64,000 bases of DNA, from the NCBI RefSeq assembly GCF_033971325.1, contig NZ_CP117180.1, positions 812,041 through 876,040 on the forward strand, given 5' to 3'. The stretch's first letter is position 1. Each line of letters begins with the position of its first letter. The notes below the pieces were generated by a model that was given only the letters and a program-made list of their open reading frames with translations, did no database searches and was not told where the DNA came from. The stretch comes from Hydrogenobacter sp. T-2 (lineage in GTDB: Bacteria; Aquificota; Aquificia; Aquificales; Aquificaceae). Both the position numbers and the translations under genes were made by a program. Positions 2,629-60,800 of the stretch are shown in pieces.

Positions 2629-2658
2629 AGAAAAAGGATTATAGCATGGCTTGGGCTT

Positions 2659-3102
2659 TTATGGGATATATAGACTGGGATGGCTACTTACAAACCTACC
2701 CTTTTCGTTAAATATGTAAGTGGACGGCAGAAAGGTAATGGGAAAATAGTCATTGAATTTCACCTCCGTGTCCACGAGAGTGAGAAATTTTGGCTCTATA
2801 TCTAACTCTTGATAGCTTTTTATTACATCCTCAGGCTCCATAGCTACCGCATAGGAGATGATAAGAAAGTCTTTCTTCTTTTCTTGTAGTTTGTTTAGCT
2901 CCTTTAGATGTTCGCTGTGTCCCACACAAGTTCTACTCCACACGTAAATGAGGATTTTTTGCCCTTTGTAGTCCGAAAGATATACCTCCTTACCTTCAAG
3001 AGTCCTTACCTGTATTTTAGGTATAGTCTCCTGAGAACAGGAGGTTAGAAAAAAAGGGAGGAGGAGAAAGAGGATATGGGCAAGGTATTTAAACACGAGC
3101 AA
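2659..3102 (-). CDS. Thioredoxin-fold lipoprotein with a degenerate active site
   Basis: Predicted envelope-anchored member of the TlpA/AhpC-TSA/SCO thioredoxin-like superfamily. A hydrophobic N-terminus ends in a lipobox (FFLTSC). The fold is recognisable from 'LSDYKGQKILIYVWSRTC', a central helix and a late cis-Pro region (ITFLPSTYIFNEKGR). The usual CxxC is replaced by C-V-G-H, so it cannot act as an ordinary dithiol oxidoreductase; one-Cys peroxidatic, metal-binding or scaffold roles are possible. Start: TTG at 3102 has an AAGGAG box seven bases upstream and gives a compact lipoprotein signal. ATG at 3126 and GTG at 3096 are alternatives. It overlaps the 3' end of thrC, so the two are probably co-transcribed. 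Substrate unknown. Confidence 0.8.
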   Translation of the reverse strand: MLVFKYLAHILFLLLPFFLTSCSQETIPKIQVRTLEGKEVYLSDYKGQKILIYVWSRTCVGHSEHLKELNKLQEKKKDFLIISYAVAMEPEDVIKSYQELDIEPKFLTLVDTEVKFNDYFPITFLPSTYIFNEKGRFVSSHPSLYIP

Positions 3103-4318: not shown

Positions 4319-4371
4319 CTTTCTACCTCCGCAGGAATCTAAAAGTAAAGATAATATAATATAAGTTTGTT

Positions 4372-44451: not shown

Positions 44452-47246
44452 AATTTGACAAGATTGTTATAAGAGGAGCACGCCAGCACAATCTAAAAAA
44501 TATAAACCTTGACATACCTAAAAACAAGTTAGTGGTTATAACTGGACCCTCTGGCTCTGGCAAGTCCACTCTGGCTTTTGACACCATTTACGCAGAGGGT
44601 CAAAGAAGGTATGTGGAGTCCCTTTCCTCTTACGCCAGACAGTTTCTTGGCATAATGGAAAAGCCTGAAGTGGACATAATAGAGGGGCTTTCGCCTGCAA
44701 TAGCCATAGACCAAAAGACCACCTCCAAAAACCCACGGTCTACTGTGGGAACTGTCACGGAGATATACGACTATATGCGTGTGCTCTGGGCAAACATAGG
44801 AAAGCCTCACTGTCCTGAGTGTGGAAGGCTCTTAGAGGGGCTATCCGCTCATGAGATATTGGAAAAGGTCTGGGAAAAATACCAAAACAGAAGGATAGCA
44901 GTCCTTTCTCCTCTCGTAAGAGGCAAAAAGGGTGAGTTCAGAGAGCTTTTCAAGGAGCTTGACAGGATGGGCTTTTCAAGGGTTAAGGTGGACGGAGAAT
45001 ACATGAGGATTTTGGAAGTGCCACCCCTTGACAAAAACAAAAAGCACCACATAGACCTCGTAGTGGACAGGCTAACCTTGGAAGAGGAAGAGAGGGCAAG
45101 GCTGTTGACAGCCATGGAAAAATCCCTTGAGCTATCAAAGGGGCTCTTAAAGGTTGAGGATGTGGAGAGCCAAAGAGAAGAGCTTTTCAGCGAACACCTT
45201 ACCTGCCCAGACCATGGCTTTTCTATCCCTGAGCTTTCTCCAAGACTTTTCTCCTTTAATTCTCCCTACGGTGCTTGTCCTGCCTGTAAGGGTCTGGGTG
45301 TGAAATGGGAAGTGAATGTGAAACTTCTTGTGGATGAGAGAGAGCCTGCGGTGGATGCCTTTCGCATAACGGATTCCGCCTATTTTGACTATCTAAGATA
45401 TCCTGTTATGAACCTGCTTAGAAAACTGGGATACGACCCAAGAACACCCTTTGGAGACCTGCCCCAAAGTGTAAGAAGTTTGCTCCTATACGGTGGGTCT
45501 ATTGAGGGTGGAAACTTTGAGGGTATTGTAAGGCACCTTGAGAGGAGGTTTTTGGAAGAAGAGTCAGAAAAACTAAGAGAGGAAATATCGGAGTTTATAA
45601 GAGAAAAACCCTGTCCAGAGTGTAAGGGTACAAGGTTAAGACCAGAAGCCCTTGCGGTTTTGGTGGATGGTAAAAGCATCTGGGACGTTGCACGCATGCC
45701 CATAAGGCAAGCCAAAGAGTTTTTTGACAACCTACCTAAAAAACTCAGTGGCAAAGACCTGCTTGTGGCGGAAAGGCTTATAAAGGAAATATCAGACAGG
45801 CTTGGCTTTCTCCTAAATGTGGGTTTGGATTATCTTGACTTGGCACGAAGTGCGGTCACCCTCTCTGGTGGAGAGATGCAACGCATAAGGCTTGCAACAC
45901 AAATAGGCTCAAAGCTCACGGGTGTGCTGTATGTCTTGGATGAGCCCTCCATAGGACTTCACCCGAGGGACACAGACAAGCTCATAAAGACCCTGAAAGA
46001 CCTAAGGGACTTGGGCAACACAGTTATAGTGGTAGAACACGACCCAGAGACTATCCTAAGTGCGGACTGGGTAATAGATATGGGTCCAGGGGCTGGTAAG
46101 GAAGGTGGTCAGGTGGTCTTTTGTGGCACTGTGGAGGAAATGCTCTCTCACGAGAAGTCTTTGACGGGTGCTTACCTCTCTAAAAGGCTCTCCATAGAAG
46201 TCCCTGCCATAAGGAGAAAACCAGAGGGTAGATGGCTAAGGATAGTGGGTGCAAGAAAGCACAACCTAAAGAATATAACAGTGGAAATTCCGGTGGGCTT
46301 ATTTGTGTGTATAACAGGAGTGTCTGGCAGTGGAAAGTCTACCCTCATATACGACATCCTCTGGGAGTATGCAAGGGCGGTCTTTTACGGTGGCACTGCA
46401 GAGGTAGAGGGCTTTGATAGGATAGAAGGGCTTGAATACTTTGACAGGGTTATTAACATAGACCAATCTCCCATAGGAAGGACTCCCAGGTCAAACCCAG
46501 CTACCTACACAAAGGTCTTTGACCATATAAGGGAACTTTTTGCACAAACGCCAGAAGCCAGGGCGAGAGGCTACAACGCAGGCAGGTTTTCCTTTAACGT
46601 AAAGGGAGGCAGATGTGAAGCCTGTCAAGGAGAGGGGGTGATAAAAGTGGAAATGCACTTCTTACCACCTGTTTATGTGCCATGTGATGTATGTAAGGGT
46701 AAAAGGTATAACAGGGAGACTTTGGATATTCTCTATAAGGGCAAAAACATCGCTGACGTGCTTGATATGACCGTGGACGAAGCCTATGAGTTTTTTGAAA
46801 ATGTGCCAGTGATAAAAAGAAAGCTACAGCTCCTAAGGGATATAGGTCTTGGCTACATAAAGCTGGGACAGCCTGCCACAACCCTTTCTGGAGGCGAAGC
46901 CCAAAGGATAAAGCTTGCCAGAGAGCTCTCTAAAAAGGAAAGCGGAAAAACCCTATACCTCTTAGATGAACCTACCACAGGTTTACATATGGACGATGTG
47001 AAAAAGCTAATAGACATACTCCAAAGGCTCGTGGAGAGAGGAAACACGGTGGTGGTTATAGAACATAACCTTGACGTGATAAAGTGTGCGGATTGGGTTA
47101 TAGACCTTGGTCCAGAGGGAGGAGAAAGGGGAGGCTATGTGGTGGCGGTGGGAACTCCAGAGGCCATAGCACAAAACCCAAATTCTTACACAGGACAGTA
47201 TCTGAAGGGGCTCTTAGAGGCAAAAGGTGTAAAGGTGTATAATTAA
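44448..47246 (+). CDS. uvrA: Excinuclease ABC subunit A
   Basis: Damage-recognition ATPase of nucleotide excision repair. 932 residues, full length. Two ABC modules with Walker A '[10 protein letters not shown]' and '[10 protein letters not shown]', signature motifs '[12 protein letters not shown]' and '[12 protein letters not shown]', and zinc modules 'CPECGRLL', 'CPACKGLGV' and 'CEACQGEGV...CDVCKGKRY'. Its start overlaps the stop of the methyltransferase-nuclease gene, an unusual partner for uvrA. The stop is followed directly by a broken coiled-coil gene in the same frame. Confidence 0.98.
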
Positions 47247-47533
47247 AAGCAAAAGGAATTAGGCAAGGAAAAGGCAGACAAGGTGGCAAAGATTTTAGGA
47301 GAAAGCTTATTCTCAAGGCGGAGATAAAGAAGGAATTGACTAAGGAGCTGGTTAAAAAGGCGGAGCTGCAGATGGTAAAGTTGGAGTTGGAAAATAAAAT
47401 TGACGAAATTGAAGCAAGAATTGATAGGCTTGAGGTATATCTTAAAGTCCTCATAGGTCTTGTTTTACTAGGTTTGACACTTCTAAATCCTACCTTTGTG
47501 GATTTGATAAAATCCATATTTAGCTCAAAATGA
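47247..47533 (+). pseudogene. Broken coiled-coil/membrane-tail gene after uvrA
   Basis: The frame directly after the uvrA stop reads 'KELGKEKADKVAKILGES' without any start codon and ends at TAA; one base out of frame the sequence continues as 'LKAEIKKELTKELVKKAELQ' to 47533. Adding one base near 47307 joins both parts into one helical protein with a coiled coil and a C-terminal membrane helix ('VYLKVLIGLVLLGLTLLNPTF'). This looks like the small coiled-coil plus membrane-anchor proteins (DUF1640-like) common in Aquificales. A 65-residue piece from TTG at 47336 could still be made; its stop overlaps the LOG-family ATG by four bases. Confidence 0.6.
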
Positions 47534-47985
47534 AGAAGCAAGTGGCAGTCATTGGTTCTTCTTCCGCAAAGCCAGAGGAGGAAGAATACCTTTTTGCATA
47601 CAGGCTTGGAAAGGAAATAGCCAAGATGGGTCTTGTGGTGGTTTGTGGAGGGCGTGGTGGTGTTATGGAGGCGGTGTGTAAAGGTGCTAAGGAAGAGGGA
47701 GGTCTTACAGTGGGAATTTTACCCTCTTACGAAGGAGAGGAGGCAAACCCTTACGTGGATATAAGGATAAGAACGGGCATGGGTTGGAATAGAAACCCTT
47801 TGGTGGTGGCAAGTGGTGATGTGGTGGTTGCAATAGGTGGAAACTGGGGAACATTTTCTGAGATTGCCTACGCCCTTATTCTCAAAAAACCCATAATAGG
47901 TTACAAAACCCACAAGATTGAGGGGCTAACGCAGGCAAACAGCCTTGAGGAAATTCTCCTATTTCTTCACAAAAATCTCAGTTGA
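47530..47985 (+). CDS. LOG-family / TIGR00725-type nucleotide-binding Rossmann protein
   Basis: 151 residues. 'VVVCGGRGGVMEAVCKGAKEEGGLTVGILPS' and 'VVVAIGGNWGTFSEIAYALILKKPIIGY' are the conserved GG-R-G-G-V-M-E-A and G-G-x-W-G-T-x-S-E blocks of the lysine-decarboxylase-like/LOG superfamily. Cytokinin-type phosphoribohydrolases of this group cleave nucleoside monophosphates; this short branch (TIGR00725) is uncharacterised. ATG overlaps the end of the broken upstream gene. Confidence 0.88.
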   Translation: MKKQVAVIGSSSAKPEEEEYLFAYRLGKEIAKMGLVVVCGGRGGVMEAVCKGAKEEGGLTVGILPSYEGEEANPYVDIRIRTGMGWNRNPLVVASGDVVVAIGGNWGTFSEIAYALILKKPIIGYKTHKIEGLTQANSLEEILLFLHKNLS

Positions 47986-48028
47986 AATTTCCTCTCAATA
48001 GACCATATTTATACAGGAGGGTCTAAGG

Positions 48029-48382
48029 ATGGAGAAGGAAGTTTTCTTCTTGGAAAACCTGCTCTTCAAAAGCACCGCTCAGGAGATAGAGGAGAGATAC
48101 CAAGAGGTATTACAGCTATATGCCCATGACCCAGAGATACTCAATATAGCCAAGAGTATAAAGGGCATGTGTGATTACATAATGAAAACTTACAAGGAGA
48201 TACCAAACCCAGAAAAGAAGTTGGACGAAAGCCTATACACGACCCTCTACCAAGTGCTAAAGGACCTTAGCATAACCCTTTATGACCTCTCTATAGCAGA
48301 GGGCGAACAGATATACTACGTTTTGTCCTCCGCTTACCAGAAGCTCAACGGTGCTAACAACCTACTGGAGAGGCTCGTCTAA
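48029..48382 (+). CDS. Small helical protein, function unknown
   Basis: 117 residues, not recognised. All-helical and acidic, without cysteine clusters apart from 'KGMCDY', no signal peptide and no membrane segment. A CAGGAGGG box ends about eight bases before the ATG, which supports translation. The pattern 'LDESLYTTLYQVLKDLSITLYDLS' suggests a helical bundle. It converges on the YihY gene with a 21-base overlap. No function can be proposed. Confidence 0.7.
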   Translation: MEKEVFFLENLLFKSTAQEIEERYQEVLQLYAHDPEILNIAKSIKGMCDYIMKTYKEIPNPEKKLDESLYTTLYQVLKDLSITLYDLSIAEGEQIYYVLSSAYQKLNGANNLLERLV

Positions 48383-49126
48383 TCTCCTTAGAAAACAAAT
48401 ACCAAGAAGAAGGCAGAAAAAGGAGTAATATAGCCAAACAAGAAACAAAAGGGGTGAGCCAATTACACTATAAAGTGGGCTTGCACTTATTAGCTTTACA
48501 ACCACTATGGAAAAGACCTTGTTGAGTATAAAAAGTAAAAAAGAAGTAAAGGCGGAAGACAAAAGGGTAAAGCCTCTTGGGCGAAAGTATAGGGAATACA
48601 GCATGCTAACCAGAAGAAAGAGAAGTAGGAAGTTGGCAAGCTCTGTTAATCTTTGGTATATACCCTCAAGAAAGGACTTGGCTATGGCTAAAAGGGCTAA
48701 GCCAAAAGACAAGGCGGTTGCATAAAGTATGAGAACAAGTGGCATAAAGACCCAAAAGGCTAACTCACTTTCCAAAGGCTTTTTCTTGTAGACCATAGAG
48801 AAGGAAAAGTTTAGGGTTTTTGCAAAGGAAAGTGCAAAGTAATAGGCAAGGGCAACAGACAAGAGAGACCCAGAAGCCCTTTTATCATACACGGGAAGAA
48901 GTTTGTCAAAGATTAGCTCCGCGTAAGAAGGAAGAAAGTCCTTTACATACTCATAAACCCTTGAAGGCTCAAGAAAAGGCAAATACATGGACATAAACCC
49001 AAGAAGCATTATCACAGAGCCTATGACAGTAAGAAACTGATAGGTAAGGGATGCACTGTGATATCCGAGGTTTTCTCTAAAGGCATCTAAGAAAGAAAGC
49101 GCGAGGCTTTTAATATACTTCCGCAT
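48362..49126 (-). CDS. YihY/BrkB family membrane protein
   Basis: 254 residues with about six membrane helices. The N-terminal 'FLDAFRENLGYHSASLTYQFLTVIGSVIML' and the later 'SVALAYYFALSFAKTLNFSFSMVYKKK' correspond to the conserved YihY/BrkB blocks (RNase BN-like by old misannotation). It is probably an inner-membrane protein of unknown transport or envelope role. Its 5' end overlaps the radical SAM gene by 17 bases, so they are co-transcribed. Confidence 0.87.
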   Translation of the reverse strand: MRKYIKSLALSFLDAFRENLGYHSASLTYQFLTVIGSVIMLLGFMSMYLPFLEPSRVYEYVKDFLPSYAELIFDKLLPVYDKRASGSLLSVALAYYFALSFAKTLNFSFSMVYKKKPLESELAFWVFMPLVLILYATALSFGLALLAIAKSFLEGIYQRLTELANFLLLFLLVSMLYSLYFRPRGFTLLSSAFTSFLLFILNKVFSIVVVKLISASPLYSVIGSPLLFLVWLYYSFFCLLLGICFLRRLDEPLQ

Positions 49127-50222
49127 CCCTTATGGTATACTCCACAATGCCCTCTAAGGGGCTTTTGAAGGTGTAGGTGTCTCCAGCCACGCTCAGTATG
49201 TAGTTGGGGCTTATGGGAACTTTACCCCTTCCTCCCGGAAGGTCCACTGCGTAGGTGGGTATACCCATTCCAGAAATTCTGCCTCTGAGATACTCCATTA
49301 TCTCAAGACCTTTCTCGAGGCTTGTCCTAAAGTGCACTGCACCCTTTATTGGGTCGCAGTGAAAAAGATAAACAGGTCTTACTTTTATTCTGAGAAGACT
49401 TCTCATAAGCTCTAACATTACCTGCGGATTGTCGTTTACACCCTTTAGCAGAACTGTTTGGTTATTGACGGGCACTCCGTGCCTAAGAAGCCTTTCCACA
49501 GCCTCTGCGGACTCTTCGGTTATCTCCTTAGGGTGGTTAAAGTGGGTATTTACCCATATGGGTGAGTATTTTTCAAGGATACGCAAAAGCTCCTCATCAA
49601 AGAACCTCTGAGGTGCAAGAACGGGAAGCCTCGTGCCAATTCTGAGAATCTCCACGTGTGGAATTCTTCGTAGGTTAGAAAGCACATACTCTAACTTCTC
49701 ATTACTTACAGAAAGGGGCTCTCCACCAGATATCAGCACATCCCTTATTTCTTCGTGTCTTCTCACATACTCTAAAAACCTATCTATCTCCTCCTTTGTC
49801 CTTGACCTTTCTCCTTCCTGAAAAATCCTTTTCCTCATACAGTGCCTGCAATAGACCGCACAGAAGGTAGTCAAGGTAAAAAGCACCCTGTCGGGATACC
49901 TATGAGTAAGACCTGGGATATGTCCCTCCTCTCTAAAGGGGTCTGGCTCTCCCATAGACTGCACCCTTTCCTCCACCTCCACCGCCCTTGGAATAGCCTG
50001 AAGCCTAATGGGGTCTTGTGGGTCCTCAGGGTCTATAAGAGAAAGGTAGTAGGGTGTTATAGCCATAGGATACAAGTCTATGGTCTGGTATATGCCCTTT
50101 TCTTCCTCTGGCGTAAGCCTTATGTATCTTTTTAGCTCTTCCTTAGTTTTTATCCTGTTTTGTATCTGCCAATGATAGCTCCGCCACATCTCCTGTGGAA
50201 TGTCCACGAAAAATCTACGCAT
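49110..50222 (-). CDS. KamA-family lysine 2,3-aminomutase-like radical SAM enzyme
   Basis: 370 residues. The [4Fe-4S] motif is in 'FCAVYCRHCMRKRIF' (C-x3-C-x2-C); 'ISGGEPL' is the SAM-binding GGEP; the PLP lysine lies in 'VDLPGGRGKVPISP'. It is shorter than catabolic lysine 2,3-aminomutase (about 416) and longer than EpmB, so either free lysine or the EF-P lysine pathway could be the target. No EF-P or EpmA gene is nearby. beta-lysine is also used for compatible solutes in some thermophiles. First gene of a two-gene operon with yihY. Confidence 0.9.
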   Translation of the reverse strand: MRRFFVDIPQEMWRSYHWQIQNRIKTKEELKRYIRLTPEEEKGIYQTIDLYPMAITPYYLSLIDPEDPQDPIRLQAIPRAVEVEERVQSMGEPDPFREEGHIPGLTHRYPDRVLFTLTTFCAVYCRHCMRKRIFQEGERSRTKEEIDRFLEYVRRHEEIRDVLISGGEPLSVSNEKLEYVLSNLRRIPHVEILRIGTRLPVLAPQRFFDEELLRILEKYSPIWVNTHFNHPKEITEESAEAVERLLRHGVPVNNQTVLLKGVNDNPQVMLELMRSLLRIKVRPVYLFHCDPIKGAVHFRTSLEKGLEIMEYLRGRISGMGIPTYAVDLPGGRGKVPISPNYILSVAGDTYTFKSPLEGIVEYTIRDAEVY

Positions 50223-50271
50223 TATACAAGAAAATTTTACAAGAGTTATAATTCATTGAGGGAGGTTAAAA

Positions 50272-50937
50272 ATGAGTCTGACAGAAGTTAACTTAGTAAT
50301 AGATGAGTTATTTCCTTATGCTGAGGCGTCTTTCAAACAACTGTTGGCTCAGAGGTCCCAGATGGTAAGTGTAAAAAGGGGCGATATTCTCTTATATCCT
50401 GGCGATACGTGTGGAATTTGCCCGGTTGTATTAAGTGGTGGGTTAAAGGTATATCTTAGTTTGGAAAACGGTAGAGAAATATTGCTATACACTATAGATA
50501 AGGGTGAGGCTTGTATGTTTGTTACCGTGTCTCTACTAAAAAAGATGCCTTATCCAGCCTTTGCGGAGGCTGACAAGGACTCGCTTCTTTTGGTTGTTGA
50601 TGATAAAACCTTTAGAGAACTTTTTGATAGATACACATATTGGCGAGAGTTTTTTCTTAATATGATAGCAAAGAATATATATCAGACTTTTTTGATGCTT
50701 AACGAAGTTATATCAAAACGCGTTGATAAACGCCTTTTAAGATATTTATACGAGACAGGTAAGGACAAAAGAATAGTGGAAGAAACACACGAAGAAATAG
50801 CCAGAAAAATAGGCACTGCAAGAGAGGTAGTAACCAGACTCCTAAAGAGGCTGGAGGTAGAGGGGCTTGTAGAAATAAGCAGGGGACAAATAAGGATCAA
50901 CAACCTTGAAGCCTTGAAAAAAGAAATATCTTTGTGA
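50272..50937 (+). CDS. Crp/Fnr-family transcriptional regulator
   Basis: 221 residues: cyclic-nucleotide-binding-like beta-roll (about 25-120), a dimerisation helix (125-150) and a C-terminal winged HTH ('THEEIARKIGTAREVVTRLLKRLEVEGLVEI'). Cysteines are C47, C50 and C81 only, so a four-Cys FNR-type cluster in the usual arrangement is not supported; heme, thiol or other redox sensing remains possible. A GAGGG SD box precedes the ATG. A perfect GTGAC/GTCAC palindrome overlaps its stop codon and lies in front of the hemoglobin gene, its most likely target. Confidence 0.93.
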   Translation: MSLTEVNLVIDELFPYAEASFKQLLAQRSQMVSVKRGDILLYPGDTCGICPVVLSGGLKVYLSLENGREILLYTIDKGEACMFVTVSLLKKMPYPAFAEADKDSLLLVVDDKTFRELFDRYTYWREFFLNMIAKNIYQTFLMLNEVISKRVDKRLLRYLYETGKDKRIVEETHEEIARKIGTAREVVTRLLKRLEVEGLVEISRGQIRINNLEALKKEISL

Positions 50938-50946
50938 CTTAGTCAC
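50934..50946. promoter_or_regulatory. Candidate Crp/Fnr operator upstream of the truncated hemoglobin gene
   Basis: GTGAC-TTA-GTCAC is a perfect inverted repeat with a three-base centre, starting inside the last codon of the regulator gene and 62 bases before the hemoglobin ATG. The half-site TGTGAC resembles the CRP half-site TGTGA but the spacing is one base shorter than in E. coli CRP sites. It fits a dimeric Crp/Fnr-type protein; binding by the adjacent regulator is inferred. Confidence 0.6.
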
Positions 50947-51007
50947 TGAAAGTCTAAAAACATAACGCTATGCTTATCTATATCAATAAACCTTAGGAGG
51001 TGCTATC

Positions 51008-51502
51008 ATGCGTAAGGGATTGCTCTTTGCATCATTGCTTACATTTATTGGGTCAGCTATGCCATTACAAGCAAAGCCAGTGTGCACACAAGAAACAATG
51101 GCAGTAGCCACAGCTCAAGGTAGAGAAAAGAAGTCCAAAAGCCTTTACGAGCGTCTGGGCGGCTATGATGCCATATCTGCAGTGGTCAAAGACCTCGCAG
51201 TAGCTCTCGTAACAGACAAACAGTTAGGTATATACTTCAAAGGTTTAAGCAACGACAGTAAAAACAAACTTATAGCCCACCTTACTGATTTTGTTTGCAG
51301 TGCTGCTGGTGGTCCCTGTATATACACGGGTAGAGATATGAAAACTTCACATGAGGGGCTTGGTATAAGTGAGTCAGATTGGAATAGGTTTGTGGAGATA
51401 ACTAAGGGAGTCCTTGATAAGTATAAAGTTCCTGCGAGAGAACAGCAAGAGTTTTTGCAAGCAGTTGCACCCCTGAAAAGCGTTATAGTGGAGAGGAGAT
51501 AA
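51008..51502 (+). CDS. Exported group 1 truncated hemoglobin
   Basis: 164 residues. A clear signal peptide (MRKGLLFASLLTFIGSAMPLQA, cleavage about after A22) is followed by a 2-on-2 globin: 'LYERLGGYDAISAVVKDL', the E-helix 'AHLTDFVCSAAGGPCIYTGRDM' and the proximal histidine H115 in 'MKTSHEGLGI'. Truncated hemoglobins bind O2, NO or CO; export to the periplasm is not the usual case. Cysteines C97 and C104 may form a disulfide. SD box TAGGAGG lies before the ATG. A Crp/Fnr regulator and a matching palindrome precede it, so redox- or NO-dependent expression is likely (inference). Confidence 0.92.
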   Translation: MRKGLLFASLLTFIGSAMPLQAKPVCTQETMAVATAQGREKKSKSLYERLGGYDAISAVVKDLAVALVTDKQLGIYFKGLSNDSKNKLIAHLTDFVCSAAGGPCIYTGRDMKTSHEGLGISESDWNRFVEITKGVLDKYKVPAREQQEFLQAVAPLKSVIVERR

Positions 51503-51525
51503 GATAGCCCTTACAGACATTATTA

Positions 51526-51549
51526 TGCCGGCTCTTAGCCGGCACTCTT
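51526..51549 (+). terminator. Hairpin terminator after the hemoglobin gene
   Basis: TGCCGGC-TCTTA-GCCGGCA is a perfect seven-pair stem with a five-base loop, followed by CTCTTT. It begins 24 bases after the hemoglobin stop. The T tract is interrupted by one C. Confidence 0.8.
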
Positions 51550-51652
51550 TAAAATGCTCTATACGAATAGAATTTTCTCCTGAAGGCGTATGCTTATATG
51601 TTATATTTCTATTGTTTCAGTGATTAGTTTCTAATACTAACATTCATCTAAT

Positions 51653-51669
51653 CTGGGTTAAAAACCCAG
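51653..51669. repeat. Perfect inverted repeat between hemoglobin and RHH remnant
   Basis: CTGGGTT-AAA-AACCCAG: seven-pair stem, three-base loop. It lies 56 bases downstream of the RHH remnant's stop on the minus strand and could have been its terminator, but no T tract follows on either strand. Confidence 0.5.
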
Positions 51670-51724
51670 TGGCATTTTGGCAACTGAATAGGGCTTTTGG
51701 TCTTTGAAAGCAAGGGGGTAGTAT

Positions 51725-51919
51725 TCACTCAATAGGCTTGAGAAGTCCATCATCGTCAACTTCCATTATGGTAGTCTTTTCTCTGAGTTTTTTTAACTCT
51801 TTTAGCTTATTTGATATCAGCTCCCCCATTGAGGTGTTTTTCTTTATGCTCTCTATCCGTAGGCTTTCCCAGAGGTCATAGGGTAAAATAACAGTGGTTT
51901 TCTTATACCTTTGCCTTTT
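51725..51919 (-). pseudogene. Ribbon-helix-helix antitoxin-like remnant without a start codon
   Basis: A 64-codon open stretch translates as a typical RHH DNA-binding protein: beta strand 'KKTTVILPYDLWESL', two helices ('RIESIKKNTSMGELISNKL') and a short acidic tail 'EVDDDGLLKPIE' as in VapB-type antitoxins. There is no ATG, GTG or TTG between the in-frame TAG at 51920-51922 and the conserved strand. Reading through TAG, an ATG at 51970 would lie in the same frame 16 codons upstream. No toxin gene follows on this strand. Most likely a decayed antitoxin gene; amber read-through or a sequencing error would make it intact. Confidence 0.62.
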
Positions 51920-51958
51920 CTAAGCCTTGTGTTTCGTGGCTTCTATTATGCCATATGA

Positions 51959-52013
51959 CCGTATGACCATAACGCCGTAAAAACATAAATACGGTTTTAC
52001 GGCAATACGGCGT
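51959..52013. repeat. Array of five TACGG/CCGTA half-sites with nested inverted repeats
   Basis: CCGTA occurs at 51959-51963 and 51975-51979, and its complement TACGG at 51990-51994, 51998-52002 and 52006-52010. Within this, GCCGTAAAA (51974-51982) and TTTTACGGC (51995-52003) form a nine-pair inverted repeat, and ACGCCGTA (51972-51979) and TACGGCGT (52006-52013) an alternative eight-pair one. It lies just upstream of the RHH remnant, where an RHH antitoxin would bind its own operator. Confidence 0.6.
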
Positions 52014-52121
52014 ATAGCTCAAAGCCCTGTCTCTCAATGGTTTAAATTTGGCAATACCACACTCAATCTTGCATGACCTGACACTTCTGGCAAACCACCT
52101 TCACTTGAGAGGGGTGCCCCC

Positions 52122-52150
52122 TTGACAAAAAGCTTGATATGTCTTATTAT
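52122..52150 (+). promoter_or_regulatory. Near-consensus sigma-70 promoter in front of the CRISPR-like repeat
   Basis: TTGACA at 52122-52127 and TATTAT at 52145-52150 with exactly 17 bases between them. Transcription should begin near 52157, 14 bases before the repeat at 52171, and run rightward. There is no open reading frame downstream on this strand, so the product would be a non-coding RNA, antisense to nothing until it reaches the 3' end of the AbiEii gene at 52310. Confidence 0.75.
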
Positions 52151-52170
52151 TCTTTATGTAGCAAGTTGAG

Positions 52171-52199
52171 GTTGCTAATCTACCGTGTGGAGTTGAAAC
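52171..52199 (+). CRISPR. Solitary 29-nt CRISPR-like repeat
   Basis: A 29-base unit beginning GTTGCTAATC and ending GTGTGGAGTTGAAAC. The 3' end GTTGAAAC is the hallmark of many type I and III CRISPR repeats, and the whole unit resembles repeats I associate with Aquificales (from memory, not checked). It is preceded by a strong promoter and an A+T-rich leader-like stretch, as the first repeat of an array would be, but no second copy follows. No cas gene is in this window. It could be an eroded array, a leader with all spacers lost, or a repeat-bearing small RNA. Confidence 0.6.
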
Positions 52200-52309
52200 T
52201 TCATAGAGAATTAGAAAGAAAAAGTCAAGAGGCTTCCTTAAGTCAAAGGCTATTAGAATAGCACACTTACAAAGGACATGCCACTTTGTTAAGGCTTTTT
52301 ATAGGCTTT

Positions 52310-52936
52310 TTAGGGAGAGGCGTTATGGTTATATTCAGAACGAATTAGAAGGGTTATATATTCTTTGATTTCTTCCCAAAAGCGGTCTATTTGTGGGTTG
52401 ACTTCCTTCTCCGCATCTTCAAAGCAGGTCAAAGCCTTGAGAAAAATTCCAGGATTGTAGTTCTTATATTTATGCTTTAAGTCTTCAACTATACTGCTAA
52501 TGCTCACTTCGTTTTTGTTTATGAGAAACCAAAGGTCAAAGAAATCCTTCTTACTACCTCTTTGTGCTATGGCTATAGCCTTCATAGACAGGATATCTCT
52601 GTCCTTTGCCAAGTATACACCTAAATCCTCTAAAAACTCTGGCTCTTCCAATAGTGGGTAAGGGTAGCTGAAAAAGGAAAACTTAACTCCTTCCATCAAG
52701 AATATAAGAGTTCCCTCACTTATAGACACTATCTCTGTTGGCATGTTTGTAAGTTTCTCCGCAAGCAAACCAACATTGAACCTATAAAAAGGGAATGTAA
52801 AAAAGTCAAAATCTTCTGAATGTCTATGTCCATATCTAATAGCCAAAGCTGTTCCTCCTGCCAAGTAAAAACCCTCAGTAAGGGATAAGGATGCTACCTT
52901 CTCTAAAGTTCTTTTCTGAATATCTCTTAAGCTCAT
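52310..52936 (-). CDS. AbiEii-type nucleotidyltransferase (toxin candidate)
   Basis: 208 residues of the nucleotidyltransferase AbiEii/AbiGii fold. 'FYLAGGTALAIRYGHRHSEDFDFF' gives the GGTAL motif and the catalytic aspartates D42 and D44; 'RGSKKDFFDLWFLI' is the second conserved block of this family. AbiEii and MenT toxins add nucleotides to tRNA or other targets and are neutralised by a partner. The partner here is probably the overlapping 90-residue gene upstream; it is not a classical AbiEi. The two genes overlap by 62 bases. The locus lies beside the RHH remnant and the CRISPR-like repeat. Confidence 0.88.
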   Translation of the reverse strand: MSLRDIQKRTLEKVASLSLTEGFYLAGGTALAIRYGHRHSEDFDFFTFPFYRFNVGLLAEKLTNMPTEIVSISEGTLIFLMEGVKFSFFSYPYPLLEEPEFLEDLGVYLAKDRDILSMKAIAIAQRGSKKDFFDLWFLINKNEVSISSIVEDLKHKYKNYNPGIFLKALTCFEDAEKEVNPQIDRFWEEIKEYITLLIRSEYNHNASP

Positions 52937-53147
52937 CCTCAGAAACCTCTAAAACCACCTTCCAAAAACTCCTATCCTTGCAGTGAAACCTATGGAGATT
53001 GTTTAGAAATATCCCTTTTAACTCCTCTTTGCTAAAAAGTGGTGCAATCTCAAGAGGATTGGCATATAGCATAGCTCTTATCAAAAGCTCCTCCCTGCTC
53101 CTTTCTCCATCCCAAGAATATTTCTTAAGAAACTCTTCTTGAGTCAT
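52875..53147 (-). CDS. Small protein preceding AbiEii gene (candidate antitoxin)
   Basis: 90 residues, family not recognised. Charged and helical: 'EFLKKYSWDGERSREELLIRAMLYANPLEIAPLF' then 'LHRFHCKDRSFWKVVLEVSEDELKRY'. It starts 211 bases before the AbiEii-type start and overlaps it by 62 bases, the order antitoxin-toxin typical of type II and IV systems. No HTH is evident, so unlike AbiEi it may not bind DNA. Function as antitoxin is inferred only from size, order and overlap. The 72 bases upstream to zwf contain no clear promoter. Confidence 0.7.
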   Translation of the reverse strand: MTQEEFLKKYSWDGERSREELLIRAMLYANPLEIAPLFSKEELKGIFLNNLHRFHCKDRSFWKVVLEVSEDELKRYSEKNFREGSILIPY

Positions 53148-53219
53148 CTCTAATTAATATCTCCCTCCTTGACTCATTTGCAAGTTCAAAGTCTGTTCTT
53201 CAATTCACTGCATAGGCGA

Positions 53220-54530
53220 TTAAGGTAAAAACTCCTCTGCCTCCTTTGGCAGTTTTACACCTTTTGGATAGACAAAGGGTTCGTCCTCCATGTTTAAGTA
53301 TGGCTCAACCACTTCCCAGAGGGTTTCTATCTCATCTCCTCTTATGAAAAGAGATTGGTCTCCTTCTACAATATCAAGGAGCAAGACCTCGTATGCGTCC
53401 TCAAACTCTGAGGGAAACCTATACTCCATGAAGGTCTCCACTGGGCAAGCCATAAACCTGCCAGTGGGCGGTCTTAGTTCAAAGACTATCTGGAGCTTGC
53501 TCTCTGGTGCGGTCTGAAAGACTATTCTATTTTGGTGTGGCTTGCAGTCAAGGAGCTTGGTAAAGCTCTGTGGAACTTCCCTAAAGACTATCTCTATCTG
53601 GGTTAGCTTTTCAGAAAGGGCTTTTCCTGTCATTAGATAAAAGGGCACTCCGTGCCAGCGGAAGTTTTCCACCAAAACCTTGGCAAGCACAAAGGTCTCT
53701 GTTTTGGAGTTTTCCACTCCTATCTCCTGCCTGTAGCCTTCGTATTGACCTCTTATGAGCCTTTCAATGCGTGTGTTTTTTAAGACCTTTACCTTTTCGT
53801 CCCTTATAAACTTCTCTGACATATAGGCGGGTGGCTCCATGGCGGTAAAGGCAAGCATTTGGAGCATGTGGTTTTGTAGCATATCCCTTATGGCACCCAC
53901 CTTGTCATAAAACTCTCCCCTTCCTTCCACTCCCACCTTCTCAAGGGCGTATATTTTCACATGCTCAATAAAATTCCTGTTCCATATGCCTTCAAAGATG
54001 GTATTGGAAAACCTCAAAGAAAAGATGTTTTGTATGGTATCCTTGCCAAGAAAGTGGTCTATGCGGTATATCTCCTCTTCTATGAAATACCTATGCAGGA
54101 TATCGTTTAACCTCTTTGCGGACTTTAGGTCAAAACCAAAGGGCTTTTCTATAACTATCTTTCTTGGGTTTGTGTAGTTTCTTAAGAGCTTTCCAAGATT
54201 TCTAATAGTATCCTCAAAAAGATATGGACTAAGTGCAAGGAAGAAGATAAGCTCTTGACCCTTTAGGTTTTCTATGAGCTTTCCAAGCTCTGCGTATGAG
54301 TTCCAATCTCGTGCATCAAAGGGTAAAAAGTTGCATAGCTTTCCAAAGCCAGCGTCCAGTCTACAAACCACCTGCTCCCAATCTTCCCGCTTACTTCTTG
54401 CCAAGGAATACACCCTGTCAAGTCCATTTAGATAACCCTTCGTGTAAAGCCTTGAGAGTGCAGGAAAGAGTTTCTTTTTTGCAAGGTCTCCCGTCCCACC
54501 AAGAATAAAAAGAGAGAAACTTCTATTCAT
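53220..54530 (-). CDS. zwf: Glucose-6-phosphate 1-dehydrogenase
   Basis: Oxidises glucose-6-phosphate to the lactone, making NADPH. 436 residues, slightly short. 'LGGTGDLAKKKLFPAL' is the coenzyme fold; 'IYRIDHFLGKDTIQNI' contains the catalytic R-I-D-H-[YF]-L-G-K signature; 'GVPFYLMTGKALSEK' is also conserved. It overlaps gnd by eight bases. The pair gives the oxidative pentose-phosphate steps; no lactonase gene (pgl) is visible between them. Confidence 0.97.
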   Translation of the reverse strand: MNRSFSLFILGGTGDLAKKKLFPALSRLYTKGYLNGLDRVYSLARSKREDWEQVVCRLDAGFGKLCNFLPFDARDWNSYAELGKLIENLKGQELIFFLALSPYLFEDTIRNLGKLLRNYTNPRKIVIEKPFGFDLKSAKRLNDILHRYFIEEEIYRIDHFLGKDTIQNIFSLRFSNTIFEGIWNRNFIEHVKIYALEKVGVEGRGEFYDKVGAIRDMLQNHMLQMLAFTAMEPPAYMSEKFIRDEKVKVLKNTRIERLIRGQYEGYRQEIGVENSKTETFVLAKVLVENFRWHGVPFYLMTGKALSEKLTQIEIVFREVPQSFTKLLDCKPHQNRIVFQTAPESKLQIVFELRPPTGRFMACPVETFMEYRFPSEFEDAYEVLLLDIVEGDQSLFIRGDEIETLWEVVEPYLNMEDEPFVYPKGVKLPKEAEEFLP

Positions 54531-55410
54531 CCTTTTTCTTTACCTGATGTCTTCCAAACTCAAACCTAAGACCTGCCAAAAGGCGGTCTCTAAAGGAGTT
54601 ATCTTGCCTTGAGCGAAAGCGAGCAAAGAGAGCCTCCGCAATAGTTGGCACTGGCACAGCCCTTTTTATGGCTTCCTCTACCGTCCAACGACCCTCTCCC
54701 GTGTCTTCCACATAAGGCTTAAGCTCTTGTAGGTCTCCAAAGTCTTCAAAGACCTTTTGAGTGAGTTCCATAAGCCAGCTACGGATAACACTACCCGTAT
54801 TGTATATGCGTGCAACCTCCCTCAAGTCATATTCAAAGCCACTTTCTTTGAGGAGCTCAAAGCCCTCACCAATAGCCTGCATAAAGGCATACTCTATGCC
54901 ATTGTGAACCATCTTGGCAAAATGCCCCGCACCAGAAGAACCAAGATAGGCATAGCCCCTACCCTCATAGGATAGGTCTCTCAAAATTGGCTCAATTCTC
55001 TCAAAGGCAGACCTGTCCCCACCCACCATAAGACAATATCCAAGCTCCTCACCATAAACACCACCACTAACACCCACATCCAAAAAGTAAACACCCATAT
55101 CCTTCAAAGCCTCCGCCCTTCTTTGAGAGTCTTTGTAAAAGCTGTTTCCACCGTCCACCACTATGTCTCCCTCTTGCAGATAAGGCTTTATGTCTTCAAG
55201 AACCTTGTCCACCACCTCGTGAGGAACCATAAGCCATACTAACTTCTGCCCCCTAAGACCCTCAAGGCTCTCCAAAACTTCCATATAAGCCCTTGCCCTC
55301 TCCCTTGCCTCCGGGTTTGCATCATAGCCCGCTACTTTGTGCCCCTTTGAAAGTAGCCTTCTTGACATACCAAGCCCCATCCTCCCCAAGCCTATCATAA
55401 AAATGTTCAT
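54523..55410 (-). CDS. gnd: 6-phosphogluconate dehydrogenase (decarboxylating), short GndA/YqeC type
   Basis: Oxidative decarboxylation of 6-phosphogluconate to ribulose-5-phosphate. 295 residues: the short, usually NAD-linked form rather than the 470-residue type. 'MIGLGRMGLGMSRRLLSKGH' is the Rossmann loop, 'VDVGVSGGVYGEELGYCLMVGG' and 'GSSGAGHFAKMVHNGIEYAFMQAIGEGFELL' hold the substrate and catalytic residues (lysine and asparagine). The C-terminal helical part is intact. It lies between the 86-residue unknown gene and zwf. Confidence 0.95.
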   Translation of the reverse strand: MNIFMIGLGRMGLGMSRRLLSKGHKVAGYDANPEARERARAYMEVLESLEGLRGQKLVWLMVPHEVVDKVLEDIKPYLQEGDIVVDGGNSFYKDSQRRAEALKDMGVYFLDVGVSGGVYGEELGYCLMVGGDRSAFERIEPILRDLSYEGRGYAYLGSSGAGHFAKMVHNGIEYAFMQAIGEGFELLKESGFEYDLREVARIYNTGSVIRSWLMELTQKVFEDFGDLQELKPYVEDTGEGRWTVEEAIKRAVPVPTIAEALFARFRSRQDNSFRDRLLAGLRFEFGRHQVKKKDE

Positions 55411-55420
55411 AGGCTAAATT

Positions 55421-55681
55421 TTATCCATACCCAAACATAAGGTCAAGTATGCCCGCCTCTATTTGTATCTCCCATTCCCTGTAGTCCTCATCCTTGTTTA
55501 ACACCACCAGATAGCCCTCTCTTTCAAAGTAGAGGATGAGCTTGGCAAGGTTGGCAAGACCGCATACCTTACCGCTTTTTAGACTGGTTATCTTTATAGT
55601 TGGCTGTGGCATATCTGCCTCTTTGTAGATATTCAACAGTTCGTCTTTGAGGTTATAGTGGAGCGTTTCAAAATCACACAC
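55421..55681 (-). CDS. Small protein between murE and gnd, unknown function
   Basis: 86 residues, not recognised. Mixed alpha/beta with two cysteines (MCDFE, KVCGLANLAKLILYFEREGYLVVLN). Its start overlaps murE by eight bases and it ends ten bases before gnd, so it is translated in the operon. No membrane or signal segment. The pattern 'FEREGYLVVLNKDEDYREWEIQ' suggests a small binding domain; nothing more can be said. Confidence 0.68.
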   Translation of the reverse strand: MCDFETLHYNLKDELLNIYKEADMPQPTIKITSLKSGKVCGLANLAKLILYFEREGYLVVLNKDEDYREWEIQIEAGILDLMFGYG

Positions 55682-57065
55682 CGAGGACCTCCTTGACCAC
55701 TTCAGAGTCTTTAAAGGGATATTTTACACCCTTTATTTCTTGGTAGTCTTCGTGTCCTTTGCCCGCTATTAGGATAACATCCCCCTCCTGTGCCATGCTT
55801 ATGGCAAGCTCTATTGCCTTTCTTCTGTCCTGTTCCACCAAGACCTTTCCTTTGTTTTCTATTCCACTCAAGATATCCTCAATTATAGCCATCGGCTCTT
55901 CAAACCTTGGGTTGTCCGAGGTCAGGACTATAAGGTCTGCAATAGCCTCTGCGGTCTTTCCCATAAGAGGTCTCTTTGTTCTATCCCTGTTTCCCCCAGC
56001 ACCAAAGACCACTATAAGCCTGTTTTTGCAAAGAGCCCTTGCGGTCCTCAAGACCTTTTCCAAAGCATCAGGCGTATGAGCATAGTCTATTATCACCACA
56101 AAGCCCTTTCCCTTGTAGGTTTCAAACCTACCGGGGACTTGCACCTGCCTTATGCCTTCTTGTATAGCTTGGCTTTCAAGCCCCCACAGAAAGCCCACAA
56201 GTATACCAAGAGAGAGGTTATACGCCTGAAAGTTCCCTCGCAGGTTGGAGAAAAAGTCATACACCTTTCCTTCGTATGCCACTCTTAGCCTTGAGCCCTC
56301 AAAGTCTGTTTGAAAGTCAAGAATTTTAAAGTCTCCTTCCCTTCCGTAGGTTCTTGGGTTTTTTGCAATAGCCTTTAGCCTTTTGCCATATGGGTCATCC
56401 TCATTTATCACCGCATAGGTATATGCATACTCCTCAAAGAGCCTTGCCTTTGCAAGGAAGTAGTCTTCCATAGTGCCATGATAGTCAAGATGGTCTTGGC
56501 TGAGGTTGGTAAAGCCCACCATATAAAAGTCCGTGCCCCATATCCTCTTTTGGTCAAGTGCATGAGAGGAAACCTCGCAAACCACCGCACTTGCACCCTC
56601 TTCCCACATGGCTTTTAGTGTGGAGTGCCACTTTATAGGGTCTGGAGTGGTCCTCCCTTCGTATTCGTATATCTTCTCTCCAAGCCTGTAGTAAATCGTC
56701 CCCATAAGACCAGTTTTTATACCCGCCTTGTTGAGGATAGACTCTATTATGTGCGTTGTGGTAGTCTTGCCATTTGTCCCCGTTATGCCCACTATCTTAA
56801 GCCTCTTTGAAACCTCACCATAAAAAAGACTTGCCAGCTCACCAAGAGCCTTTCTTGTATCTTCCACCTTTATAATGCGTGGGTCTTTTATGCCTACTTC
56901 CCTCTCCACAAACACGTAGAGAGCACCCCTTTGCAAAGCCTCTTCCACAAAGTCATGCCCATCCACCTGCGTTCCTTTAATGGCTACAAAAACATAACCC
57001 TCGCGGACTTCCTTGGAGTTAGAACTTATACCTTTTGCATAAGAGAGGATTTCTTTTAGGTTCAT
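55674..57065 (-). CDS. murE: UDP-N-acetylmuramoyl-tripeptide synthetase (MurE)
   Basis: Adds the third amino acid to UDP-MurNAc-L-Ala-D-Glu in the cytoplasm. 463 residues with the ATP-binding 'GITGTNGKTTTTHII', central 'GFTNLSQDHLDYHG' and C-terminal 'GAGGNRDRTKRPLMG'. The specificity loop reads DNPR ('LTSDNPRFEEP'), which in known MurE enzymes selects meso-diaminopimelate. First gene of a minus-strand operon with the 86-residue gene, gnd and zwf. It marks the right end of the housekeeping DNA; A+T content rises just upstream. Confidence 0.97.
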   Translation of the reverse strand: MNLKEILSYAKGISSNSKEVREGYVFVAIKGTQVDGHDFVEEALQRGALYVFVEREVGIKDPRIIKVEDTRKALGELASLFYGEVSKRLKIVGITGTNGKTTTTHIIESILNKAGIKTGLMGTIYYRLGEKIYEYEGRTTPDPIKWHSTLKAMWEEGASAVVCEVSSHALDQKRIWGTDFYMVGFTNLSQDHLDYHGTMEDYFLAKARLFEEYAYTYAVINEDDPYGKRLKAIAKNPRTYGREGDFKILDFQTDFEGSRLRVAYEGKVYDFFSNLRGNFQAYNLSLGILVGFLWGLESQAIQEGIRQVQVPGRFETYKGKGFVVIIDYAHTPDALEKVLRTARALCKNRLIVVFGAGGNRDRTKRPLMGKTAEAIADLIVLTSDNPRFEEPMAIIEDILSGIENKGKVLVEQDRRKAIELAISMAQEGDVILIAGKGHEDYQEIKGVKYPFKDSEVVKEVLGV

Positions 57066-57213
57066 CTTATCAACTTCTATTATATCTCAACCACTATAGG
57101 CTCACACGACTAAATAACTACCCATCTCCTAACTACTTCTTTGTTATAGTCCCTGTCTTTCATTTCTGTCCCACCAATAAATTCTTTCTTATTTTGACTT
57201 TTTATCCAAACTT

Positions 57214-57885
57214 TTATAACCTCAAAAGATGCCCATTTCGCTTTAACCAATCTGCGTATTTTTCAAAATTTGGCATTAATACTTTAACTTTAATCCAAAA
57301 GTTTTTTGAATGATTCTTTTCTTCGGTATGGACAAGCTCATGAATTACAACATAATCTATTACAGAAAGTGGTGCCATCACAAGTCTCCACGAAAAATTT
57401 AGTATCCCATTTGGAGAACATGACCCCCATCTTTTGTTTGCATTAGTAATATTAATTTTTTTGTACTTAAACCCTCCATCTTTGGCATACTTTTCTACCC
57501 TTTCTGAAATTTTTTCGTAAGCTTTTTCTTTATACCATTCAATAAAAACTTCCCTTGCCTTTGGTAGAGCATCTCTTAAGAGATAAAATCCTCTATCAAA
57601 TTTCAAAGGCACATCTTGATTATCTACTATAGTTAGCTTATAACTTCTCCCAAGATATAAAAATCCTTCTCCATTAACAAATTCCTTAGGTGTAAATTTA
57701 GGATTCCTTGCCTCAACTTCCATTTTCTTTTTTATAATCCAATTTTTATGTTTAGAAATAACATGCATTATGGTTTCATCACTAATATTATATGGTGCTC
57801 TAATAATAAGAGTAGCATCATCTGTTATTTGTAATGCTACTGTTTTCCTGTTTGATCTTATAATTTTTTCTATTGTTATTTCCAT
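57214..57885 (-). CDS. YgjP-like (DUF45) metallopeptidase next to type I RM genes
   Basis: 223 residues. 'VVIHELVHTEEKNHSKNFW' provides H-E-x-x-H and a third downstream histidine, as in the SprT/WLM-like YgjP (DUF45) family. The N-terminal half is a beta-rich domain ('KIIRSNRKTVALQITDDATLIIRAP'). Such genes commonly travel with type I restriction systems; protease activity on HsdR or another RM component is a guess. It lies five bases after hsdR ends and is last in the operon. Codon use is much more A+T-rich than in murE. Confidence 0.88.
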   Translation of the reverse strand: MEITIEKIIRSNRKTVALQITDDATLIIRAPYNISDETIMHVISKHKNWIIKKKMEVEARNPKFTPKEFVNGEGFLYLGRSYKLTIVDNQDVPLKFDRGFYLLRDALPKAREVFIEWYKEKAYEKISERVEKYAKDGGFKYKKINITNANKRWGSCSPNGILNFSWRLVMAPLSVIDYVVIHELVHTEEKNHSKNFWIKVKVLMPNFEKYADWLKRNGHLLRL

Positions 57886-57889
57886 AAAA

Positions 57890-60800
57890 CTACCTCTTTA
57901 CATAAATATGATACGCAAGCTCAAGTAGCCTCTGAGGTATTTCATTTATTTTTTTTAAAATTTTCTCACGGGTCAAATTAGAACCAGACTTAGTGTGTTT
58001 TAATAAGTGAGATAGTATAAAAGACTTTAATCTTTTTTGCTTAGGATAACTTTCCCAAAAATCTACAAGACTACTTTCTCTTTTAATAATTTCTGTTACA
58101 TCTTTAGTTAAATTAACGAGAAACTTTATCTCTTCATTCGTAAGTTCTTCATCTTCCTTTCTCCCAAGTATCATATACTTTAATAATCCAAAAAATGGTT
58201 TTTCCATCTTTGGATCTAAACCAAAGTTTTTTTCCACACTTCTACCTTTTTTCATTTCCTCTCTAAGAATCTCAAGCTCCTTGAAAAGCATTTCCCAATT
58301 TTCTCTGTATTCCTCAAGAATCTTTTTCAACTTATCTGAAAATCTCTCGTAGAATTCCGGGTCTTCCTCATAATGTCTTTCAATATATTCCTTAATAGCA
58401 TACTCAAGTTCTTGAGCTTTTGCTTTGTCTGTTTTTCCCTTTAATTTTTCAAGAAATACATCATCAAAAAGTGGAGTGGGCGGGATTTTGGGATCAACAC
58501 CCTTTGACTTAAGATACTCATCAACAATCTCTCTTATCTTTCTAGTGGCATCCTTTATAGATAACTTTTCATCTCTATACCTATTTCTTGCTGTTTCTTT
58601 TATAAAACTCAAAAGTTTTAAATCTTTAACATATTTTAATGCCTCAGGGTCTGGTAAAACAGCGTCTATTGCTTTATTAAATTTTCTTACTAAGAAAATA
58701 AATTCATTTCTTATTTCTTCGTCAGCTAAAAGATCTATACATTCATTTATGTTATCCCTCCAGTTTTCAATGCTATATTTTTCAAAAAATTCCTCTATTA
58801 GATTATGATTGAATTTAAGCTCATCAATGCTTTTAGATTTATTTATAACAACTTGTGTGATTTCTTCTATATCTTCGTCTGCATAAATAGCAAGAGCTTC
58901 TTTTAAATGCTTAAAAACTCCAACATAATCTACAACAAAACCACAACTTTTATTTTTATAAACTCTGTTGACCCTTGCAATTGCTTGAAGTAAATTGTGA
59001 CCGTTTATAACATTATCCAAATACATAACTTGCTCAAGTGGTGCATCAAATCCAGTAATAAGCATATTTTGAACAACAATTATACCAACATCACCAGATA
59101 ATTCTCCATCAGTTTTATTAAAAGGTAGTTTAAATTTTTTTATTATTTCTTCATGTTTATTTTCGTCAGTATATGGCTTATATTCCTCTGGATCGTTTGG
59201 GGCACCTGAGATGACTACTTCAATCTTCAATTTTTCAAGTTGAGATAAATCTATATTATGAGGATTCTCCTTTTTTAGCTCTTCTATTTTTTCTTTTAAA
59301 GCTTTTTCCAACGCATGTTTATATCTAATTGCTGCAAGCCTTGAAACAGTTACAACTTGGGCTTTAAATCCATTAGGAAAAACATGAGTGACATAATGGT
59401 TTATCATATCTCTTGCTTTATCTCTTATAACTTCCTCAGCCTCGAGATATGCTCGCCAGGTATACCTTTCCAAAATTTTTGCCCTTTCTTCTGTGTCTAG
59501 CGCATGAAATACATCCTCAAACCTTGCATTAGCCTTTTCTTCCTCAGTTAACTCTGCACTGTGAACCCTTCCCTCATATACGATTGGTACAGTGACCCCA
59601 TCGTCTACCGCCTGTTTAATGCTATATTTGTCTATATATTCACCAAAAGTCATTTCGGTTTTCTCAATTGGTGTTCCTGTAAAGGCAATTTTTATAGAGT
59701 TAGGTAATGCTTTTCTCAAATTAGCACCAAGTAATTTATATTGAGATCTATGAGCTTCATCAATCATAACAAGTATGTTTGGGGAGGTATTAAGCACTGG
59801 AAATTCACTCTTAAGTTCTCTTTCCTGATACTTATGAATCATACACATAACTAAATCAGGAGTGTTAGTTCTCAATAATTCTTTTAATTCGTGTATACTT
59901 CTTGCAAGTTTTACGGTAAAGCCTACACTGCTTGAAGTTGCGTATAATTGCTTTTCTAAATCTCTTCTATCTGTCACAAAGACAATCTTAAAGTTACTAA
60001 GCTCAGGATCATGATAGATTTCTCTCACTGCATACATCATAGTTAAAGACTTTCCAGAACCCTGAGTATGCCAAATAATTCCACCTTTCTCCTCAGGAGT
60101 TTTACCTTCCTTTATTCTCTTAACCATCTTTTTGACTGCTCTAAATTGCTGATATCTTGGGACAATCTTAGCAATTCCGCCCTTTGAATCCTCCTTAAAA
60201 ATTGTAAAATTGTGAAGAATATCAAGAAGATTCCTATTTGAAAGCATTCCATAAATTAAGAGTTCTTGACTTGTTATGTTTTCTTCTGAACTTATATCTG
60301 AAAGAGTATAAGGATATGGATCTTTCCATTCTACAAAATCCTCATAATCTGAAGTTATTGTACCATACTTGGCTACTTGTCTTGATGTAGCCACCGAAAA
60401 AAGATTATACCAAAATAACTTCTCATTTCCTTCATTTGCCCCCCGTCTATTTGAATATCTTTTTATCTGCTCTATTCCTTCTCCAATAGGGTCAGAAATA
60501 GTTGGCGATTTACATTCCACTACTACTAAAGGTAAACCATTTACAAAAAGGACAATGTCAGGGATTATGTGCTTTTCTGTTCCTGTAATGTTTACTTTAA
60601 ATTGTGATATGGCAATAAATGAATTGTTATCAAGATTATGGAAATCTATAAACTTTACTGTTGGGCTTCTTTCTCCTGTTTGTCTATTTTCTGATACAGA
60701 TGTGTTTTCAAGGAGTAAGTCATGTATTTCTCTATTTATTTCTAAAAGTGAATTTTTATAGGGCGTTGTTATTCTTCTTACAACTTCATTTATTTGGTCT

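Follow-up and report, generated by a model that had tools for sequence, protein, structure and literature searches.

A single CRISPR repeat in the chromosome of Hydrogenobacter sp. T-2 as a probable array remnant at a recombination joint

Leader, repeat and trailer at the locus

We analysed a stretch of 64,000 nucleotides (hereafter, the window) from Hydrogenobacter sp. T-2, corresponding to positions 812041–876040 of the host genome, which consists of one contig of 1,692,950 bases. The features of interest were the following (window positions, strand, description):

51653–51694, plus: module start, a small hairpin CTGGGTTAAAAACCCAG followed by TTGGCAACTGAATAGGG, at the left end of homology; putatively boxA-like
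51725–51919, minus: decayed RHH gene linked to the leader; without its start codon, with a TAG in frame just upstream and 64 codons still open
51952–52015, no strand: tandem CCGTA/TACGG element, proposed RHH binding site; its type co-varies with RHH strand residues across 28 loci
52021–52170, plus: CRISPR leader with promoter; −35 TTGACA at 52122–52127, −10 TATTAT at 52145–52150, predicted start near 52157
52171–52199, plus: single CRISPR repeat GTTGCTAATCTACCGTGTGGAGTTGAAAC of the CTACC subtype, marking a recombination joint; copies in the host genome and in the related genome G036
52200–52319, plus: array trailer, not spacer; ~86% identity to what follows the final repeat of the array beside the cas operon at 1179k in G036
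52310–52936, minus: AbiEii-type nucleotidyltransferase toxin gene, a neighbour outside the CRISPR unit; Pfam AbiEii (E = 6e-17), PADLOC AbiEii
52875–53147, minus: small AbiEii partner gene, 90 aa, without a family match

A sequence-only reading of the window had described a promoter and one CRISPR-like repeat beside toxin–antitoxin genes, and had offered three interpretations: a collapsed array, a trans-acting RNA resembling a crRNA, or a toxin-guarding RNA of the CreTA kind. Its description of the letters was accurate. The promoter hexamers, separated by 17 bp, and the 29-nt unit were found at the positions that it gave, and the unit is single in the window, where no second copy was detected at up to 9 of 29 mismatches. 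Open reading frames were listed for 46000–58000 of the window and inspected by eye, and none was a cas gene.

The repeat recurs in the host genome, with 11 copies at up to three mismatches (none for a reversed control pattern). An exact copy lies at 95800, and the repeat of a five-repeat array at 1654k differs by one mismatch. This array (1654330–1654622) contains four spacers of 36–38 nt and, beyond a gap of 10 nt, closes with a degenerate repeat (span 1654291–1654622). Other sites of the repeat family carry one or two repeats each, for example two at 1306k. The leader of the window was 91–95% identical to those at 1654594, 1306600 and 1434078, and the 100 bases 5′ of the window repeat were 93–95% identical to the corresponding bases at 1654k, 1306k and 1434k, each ending in the repeat. 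Because leader and repeat recur together in the host genome, the unit is a genuine CRISPR leader plus repeat. The earlier suspicion that it was a CRISPR repeat is also borne out by G036, in which a cas-linked array was found. The −35 hexamer is located 49 bp before the first repeat in the window, with identical spacing in the leaders of three genera. As the promoter is common to leaders generally, its presence needs no special function.

Window positions 52164–52319 aligned at ~86% with the end of the three-repeat array at 1179k in G036, where the terminal repeat passes into the trailer. The alignment identifies the sequence after the repeat as trailer and leaves no lost spacer there. This sequence had no other match in the host genome, the 131 bases 3′ of the repeat had no match in phage records, and a search of window 51300–52600 against Rfam found nothing. 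The locus consists of one repeat and then the trailer; two repeats split by a spacer are absent, so it is a remnant rather than a working array.

The leader is part of a module of ~530 bp, in the order 70-aa minus-strand RHH-type gene, tandem element, leader. Homology among module copies begins at window 51665–51670 and ends with the repeat.

Several further observations were made on arrays and leaders. In another genome of the same genus (G042), RHH gene, leader and a single repeat are present, the RHH gene is intact and an array is absent. The host arrays at 704k, 503k and 628k have unrelated repeats (GTTTTAAGCCCACTGTGAGGGATGGAGAC; GTTCATTTTCCACATTCTATACAGATTAT), yet their leaders are related and parts of the RHH region remain there; the leader module thus serves several repeat families. 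A spacer at host 703988–704026, from an array of another repeat family, matches leaders of the CRISPR family of the window, with no mismatch to the 75k leader of G036, one to the host leaders at 1654k and 1306k, and four to the window leader. Such self-targeting of leaders could introduce breaks that drive rearrangements. In the 1654k array, spacers 2 and 4 are one base apart; in G036, a two-spacer block is repeated at 75k and one spacer is repeated at 736k. We regard these duplications as signs of repeat–repeat recombination within arrays. Searches of viral contigs for the repeat core and for the leader pattern found nothing, and an origin from a viral mini-array is therefore not indicated.

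Flank permutation relative to a related genome and loss of the cas operon

We compared the flanks of nine module loci in the host genome (G000) with those of nine in G036. Five module loci were collinear between the genomes; three single-repeat loci were not. At the locus in the window (host 864k), the left flank of the 1614k locus of G036 is joined to the right flank of its 1179k locus. Host 1434k combines the left flank of 1179k with the right flank of 736k, and host 176k the left flank of 736k with the right flank of 1614k. In the resulting three-by-three matrices, every left flank had one G036 partner (745–6161 aligned bases, 88–89% identity), as did every right flank (4364–8642 bases, 88–98%), and the remaining cells contained 0 aligned bases, bar one with 81. 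The trailers behind the three host single repeats are those found after the last repeats of the G036 arrays. The flank alignments establish that the three single-repeat loci of the host are joints at which three arrays, each found in G036, swapped flanks in a cycle. The simplest account of the flank permutation is recombination between arrays, with one repeat left per joint.

The repeat subtypes add to this picture. The window repeat shares its CTACC subtype with two arrays of G036, at 445k and 736k; the 1179k array, which owns the trailer, has the CCACC subtype. The repeat subtype goes with the leader side and the trailer with another array, a pattern that would also fit a crossover in the long homologous leader followed by shrinkage. 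The window module (RHH gene and leader) is closer to G036 445k (91%) and 736k (88%) than to 1614k, whose left flank the window shares, so an extra gene conversion must be assumed. For the solo repeat at host 95k, where the leader is deleted, no matching flank was found among the G036 loci examined. Between the two genomes, we estimated ~25 breakpoints at 45-kb sampling, using 40 G036 markers, of which ~30 could be placed. With this number, CRISPR loci account for only some of the reshuffling.

The cognate cas genes were recognised in G036. Its 1179k locus has the order array, RHH, cas2, cas1, cas4, cas3, an ORF in the place of cas8, cas5 and cas7, with cas6 in the opposite direction, and is a type I-B cas operon, in which cas7 and cas8 were named by operon place and sequence rather than by profile search. 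At host 1434k, the left flank stops within cas7: this gene has a broken frame, is cut off near residue 189 and abuts the leader directly. The cas6 gene there is intact, with 94% identity to its G036 counterpart. Comparison with G036 demonstrates that the cognate cas operon was deleted at this joint; the loss begins inside cas7 and extends as far as the RHH gene, cas2 included. The host genome contained a single match to Cas1, at 532k, outside the window, in another type I-B operon with a different array repeat. As the sole Cas1 belongs to this other family and cas7 is a remnant, the repeat family of the window has lost its adaptation genes and effector, except cas6. This loss explains the orphan unit in the window.

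The locus can be compared with type I-B loci of other Aquificaceae (1179k in G036; MAG contigs JALWEG010000059.1 and DQTK01000112.1), which have the same repeat type or a close variant and the order array, RHH, cas2, cas1, as in the family of the window; close leader identity to the window was demonstrated for the G036 locus. The window locus differs from these in that its repeat is single, its RHH gene is broken and no cas genes adjoin it. CRISPR loci at rearrangement joints are already known from Thermotogales. As far as the two papers that cite the original work describe it (DeBoy et al. 2006, cited in PMC5637354 and PMC5052741), CRISPR loci in these bacteria occur at sites of chromosomal rearrangement or inversion. 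The likeness lies in thermophile CRISPR loci at breakpoints between related genomes; the host joints differ from what is described there in consisting of exactly one repeat, in forming a closed cycle of three loci and in the loss of a cas operon at one joint.

Origin of the single repeat and alternative readings

Of the three interpretations offered earlier, we favour the collapsed array, given the repeats in host arrays and the trailer and cas-linked array in G036. The window unit is very probably a collapsed, orphaned remnant of a type I-B CRISPR array at a recombination joint, whose cognate cas operon has been deleted. Two dispersed arrays of one repeat family would have undergone a crossover, presumably by repeat–repeat recombination, so that one array contributed the leader side and another the terminal repeat with its trailer. 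Judging by the comparison with G036, all spacers were lost in the process and one repeat remained. The promoter probably still yields a short leader–repeat–trailer RNA that Cas6 could cleave, and this RNA, with neither spacer nor effector, would confer no immunity. The intact promoter and leader could retain a residual function. A leader with one repeat would in principle be a landing site for new spacers, and the matching Cas1–Cas2 is missing. In Escherichia coli, naive spacer integration is reported to need no more than one repeat once Cas1 and Cas2 have been induced (PMC10011333). A matching Cas1–Cas2, were it to return, could therefore in principle reseed the scar. With both sides of every joint identified, the three loci illustrate how CRISPR arrays scattered over a chromosome reshuffle it, leaving behind single-repeat scars that resemble orphan small-RNA genes.

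We weighed three other explanations. Loss of repeats and spacers by recombination between repeats of one array is an ordinary process, and short arrays occur elsewhere, such as that with two repeats at 1306k; in G042, too, RHH gene and leader are accompanied by one repeat. The window locus might have shrunk in this way without any exchange between arrays, in which case the flank permutation would stem from unrelated rearrangements. We consider this improbable, as all three single-repeat joints sit exactly where the flanks swap partner, each of the two partners is, in G036, a CRISPR locus belonging to the same family, and the subtype of the repeat differs from that of the array owning the trailer. 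More doubtful still is a functional small RNA transcribed from the leader promoter, with the repeat as a handle for Cas6 or another protein, and retained because it regulates or acts as an anti-Cas decoy. In its favour, neither promoter nor repeat is damaged, and cas6 is intact as well, with its high identity to the G036 gene. However, the downstream part is plain trailer with ~86% identity to G036 and no target in the host or in phages, Rfam gave no match, and the promoter is one that leaders generally have. The conserved trailer, the lack of a host or phage match and the disappearance of the effector operon likewise speak against the trans-acting crRNA-like RNA of the sequence-only reading.

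The third explanation concerns the neighbouring AbiEii genes. In a CreTA/CrePA-like element (reviewed in PMC12737573), a repeat-derived RNA together with Cas would repress the AbiEii toxin and so punish the loss of Cas. The window resembles such systems in having a repeat-like element, here a transcribable one, next to a toxin gene, and an AbiEii-like region also lies beyond the 311k array of G036. It differs from them in lacking paired degenerate repeats, a seed match in the region searched before the toxin pair and the Cas effector of its family. The search of the window at up to 9 of 29 mismatches yielded no second, degenerate repeat, and the first eight bases after the repeat had no match on either strand at 52940–53250, upstream of the toxin pair. 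Moreover, the effector operon of the repeat family has been lost while the toxin gene is still there, and beside the 1179k array of G036 most of the toxin gene is missing, yet array and cas genes persist. A guard of the CreTA type is therefore a suggestion to which we give next to no credence. The homologue of the AbiEii region (52310–53147) in G036 is inverted, lies just past a second CRISPR array, at 311k, and is 78% identical.

The leader-linked RHH gene and its tandem element

The decayed gene at 51725–51919 had been described as an RHH antitoxin remnant. The RHH fold is supported; an antitoxin role is not, and the gene belongs to the CRISPR module rather than to the AbiEii pair. Intact copies of ~70 aa were found at host 1306k and 1654k, with five in G036, and pairwise dN/dS among intact copies was 0.11–0.26 wherever dS was computable. 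A structural model built from three family members (pLDDT 78.5) comprised an extended segment and two helices (residues 17–30 and 34–53). The leading PDB matches of the model included MatP, Arc, AmrZ, CopG and MazE, with TM-scores to the query of ~0.5–0.7 and a best E-value of only 0.24. At the sequence level, the protein had no Pfam match at E up to 0.1, only a weak MatP match below the cut-off in NCBIfam and weak, Arc-like matches in PHROGs, and PADLOC did not recognise it. The predicted extended strand and two helices liken it to RHH proteins of the Arc, CopG and MatP type. The Aquificaceae gene is unlike these in having neither a Pfam match nor a recognised toxin partner, and in recurring between CRISPR leader and cas2. 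No toxin partner was recognised among the neighbours examined, which in many genomes are the CRISPR leader, cas2 or cas6.

Matches to the RHH gene were detected in 26 of the 64 Aquificaceae genomes. A phylum-wide search of 136 genomes added one match beyond the Aquificaceae, in another family of the same order, and a scan of a contig collection with the RHH protein returned only two loci, both from Aquificaceae. In 22 of the 29 loci with at least 400 bp of upstream sequence, a CRISPR repeat lies within 520 bp of the RHH gene, in divergent orientation; three further loci have repeats that are degenerate or carry an indel, as judged by eye. In many cas loci, the gene is placed between leader and cas2 and convergent with cas2, and in others it lies beside cas6. 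A search for a leader-linked RHH family found none listed with a CRISPR name in NCBIfam, PADLOC or Pfam, and none in the searchable papers. Within these sources, the gene appears to be without a description.

We then related the RHH proteins to the tandem element located between gene and leader. All nine loci with a K-T-T-x-[I/L] strand had an ACGG-type element, and in all 19 loci with an R-T-T-x-S strand the element was not of the ACGG type, most being of the GATG type (Fisher's exact test, p = 1.4e-7, with loci taken as independent of descent). Both classes occur within one genus, and one comparison approaches a minimal pair: VVKTTILLP with CCGTAA repeats in G052 versus MVRTTISLP with ATGATGC repeats in G053. 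In known RHH proteins, strand positions i, i+2 and i+4 contact DNA, and RHH genes typically have tandem sites close to their own promoters. These contact positions match the co-varying residues, which fits direct binding.

The RHH protein is probably a leader-linked regulator. From the co-variation, its most likely binding site was the tandem element that separates the start of its gene from the leader; bound there, it would repress itself and perhaps tune leader activity. Tentatively, and with somewhat more doubt than confidence, we propose that the gene is an undescribed CRISPR accessory regulator at Aquificaceae leaders, which would bind the tandem element and either control leader transcription or, like IHF in E. 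coli, give the leader a shape suited to spacer integration. Under this proposal, its specificity would have switched more than once, GATG versus ACGG, together with two contact residues, and RHH–leader–repeat modules would have multiplied in the chromosome and become recombination hotspots. A small, conserved, cas-linked DNA-binding gene whose predicted site can be read from co-variation makes leader regulation beyond E. coli directly testable.

At the other end of the module, the hairpin and TTGGCAACTGAATAGG at 51653–51694 look like a boxA-like antitermination element, by comparison with known boxA elements (PMC7862264). In other genera, TTGGCAACTGAATAGG is again found close to CRISPR leaders, there between RHH gene and leader. 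Just before it in the window lies a 32-bp dispersed repeat (51606–51637), with an exact copy at host 1465264 and near copies in G036 at 512446, 1605809 and 426126.
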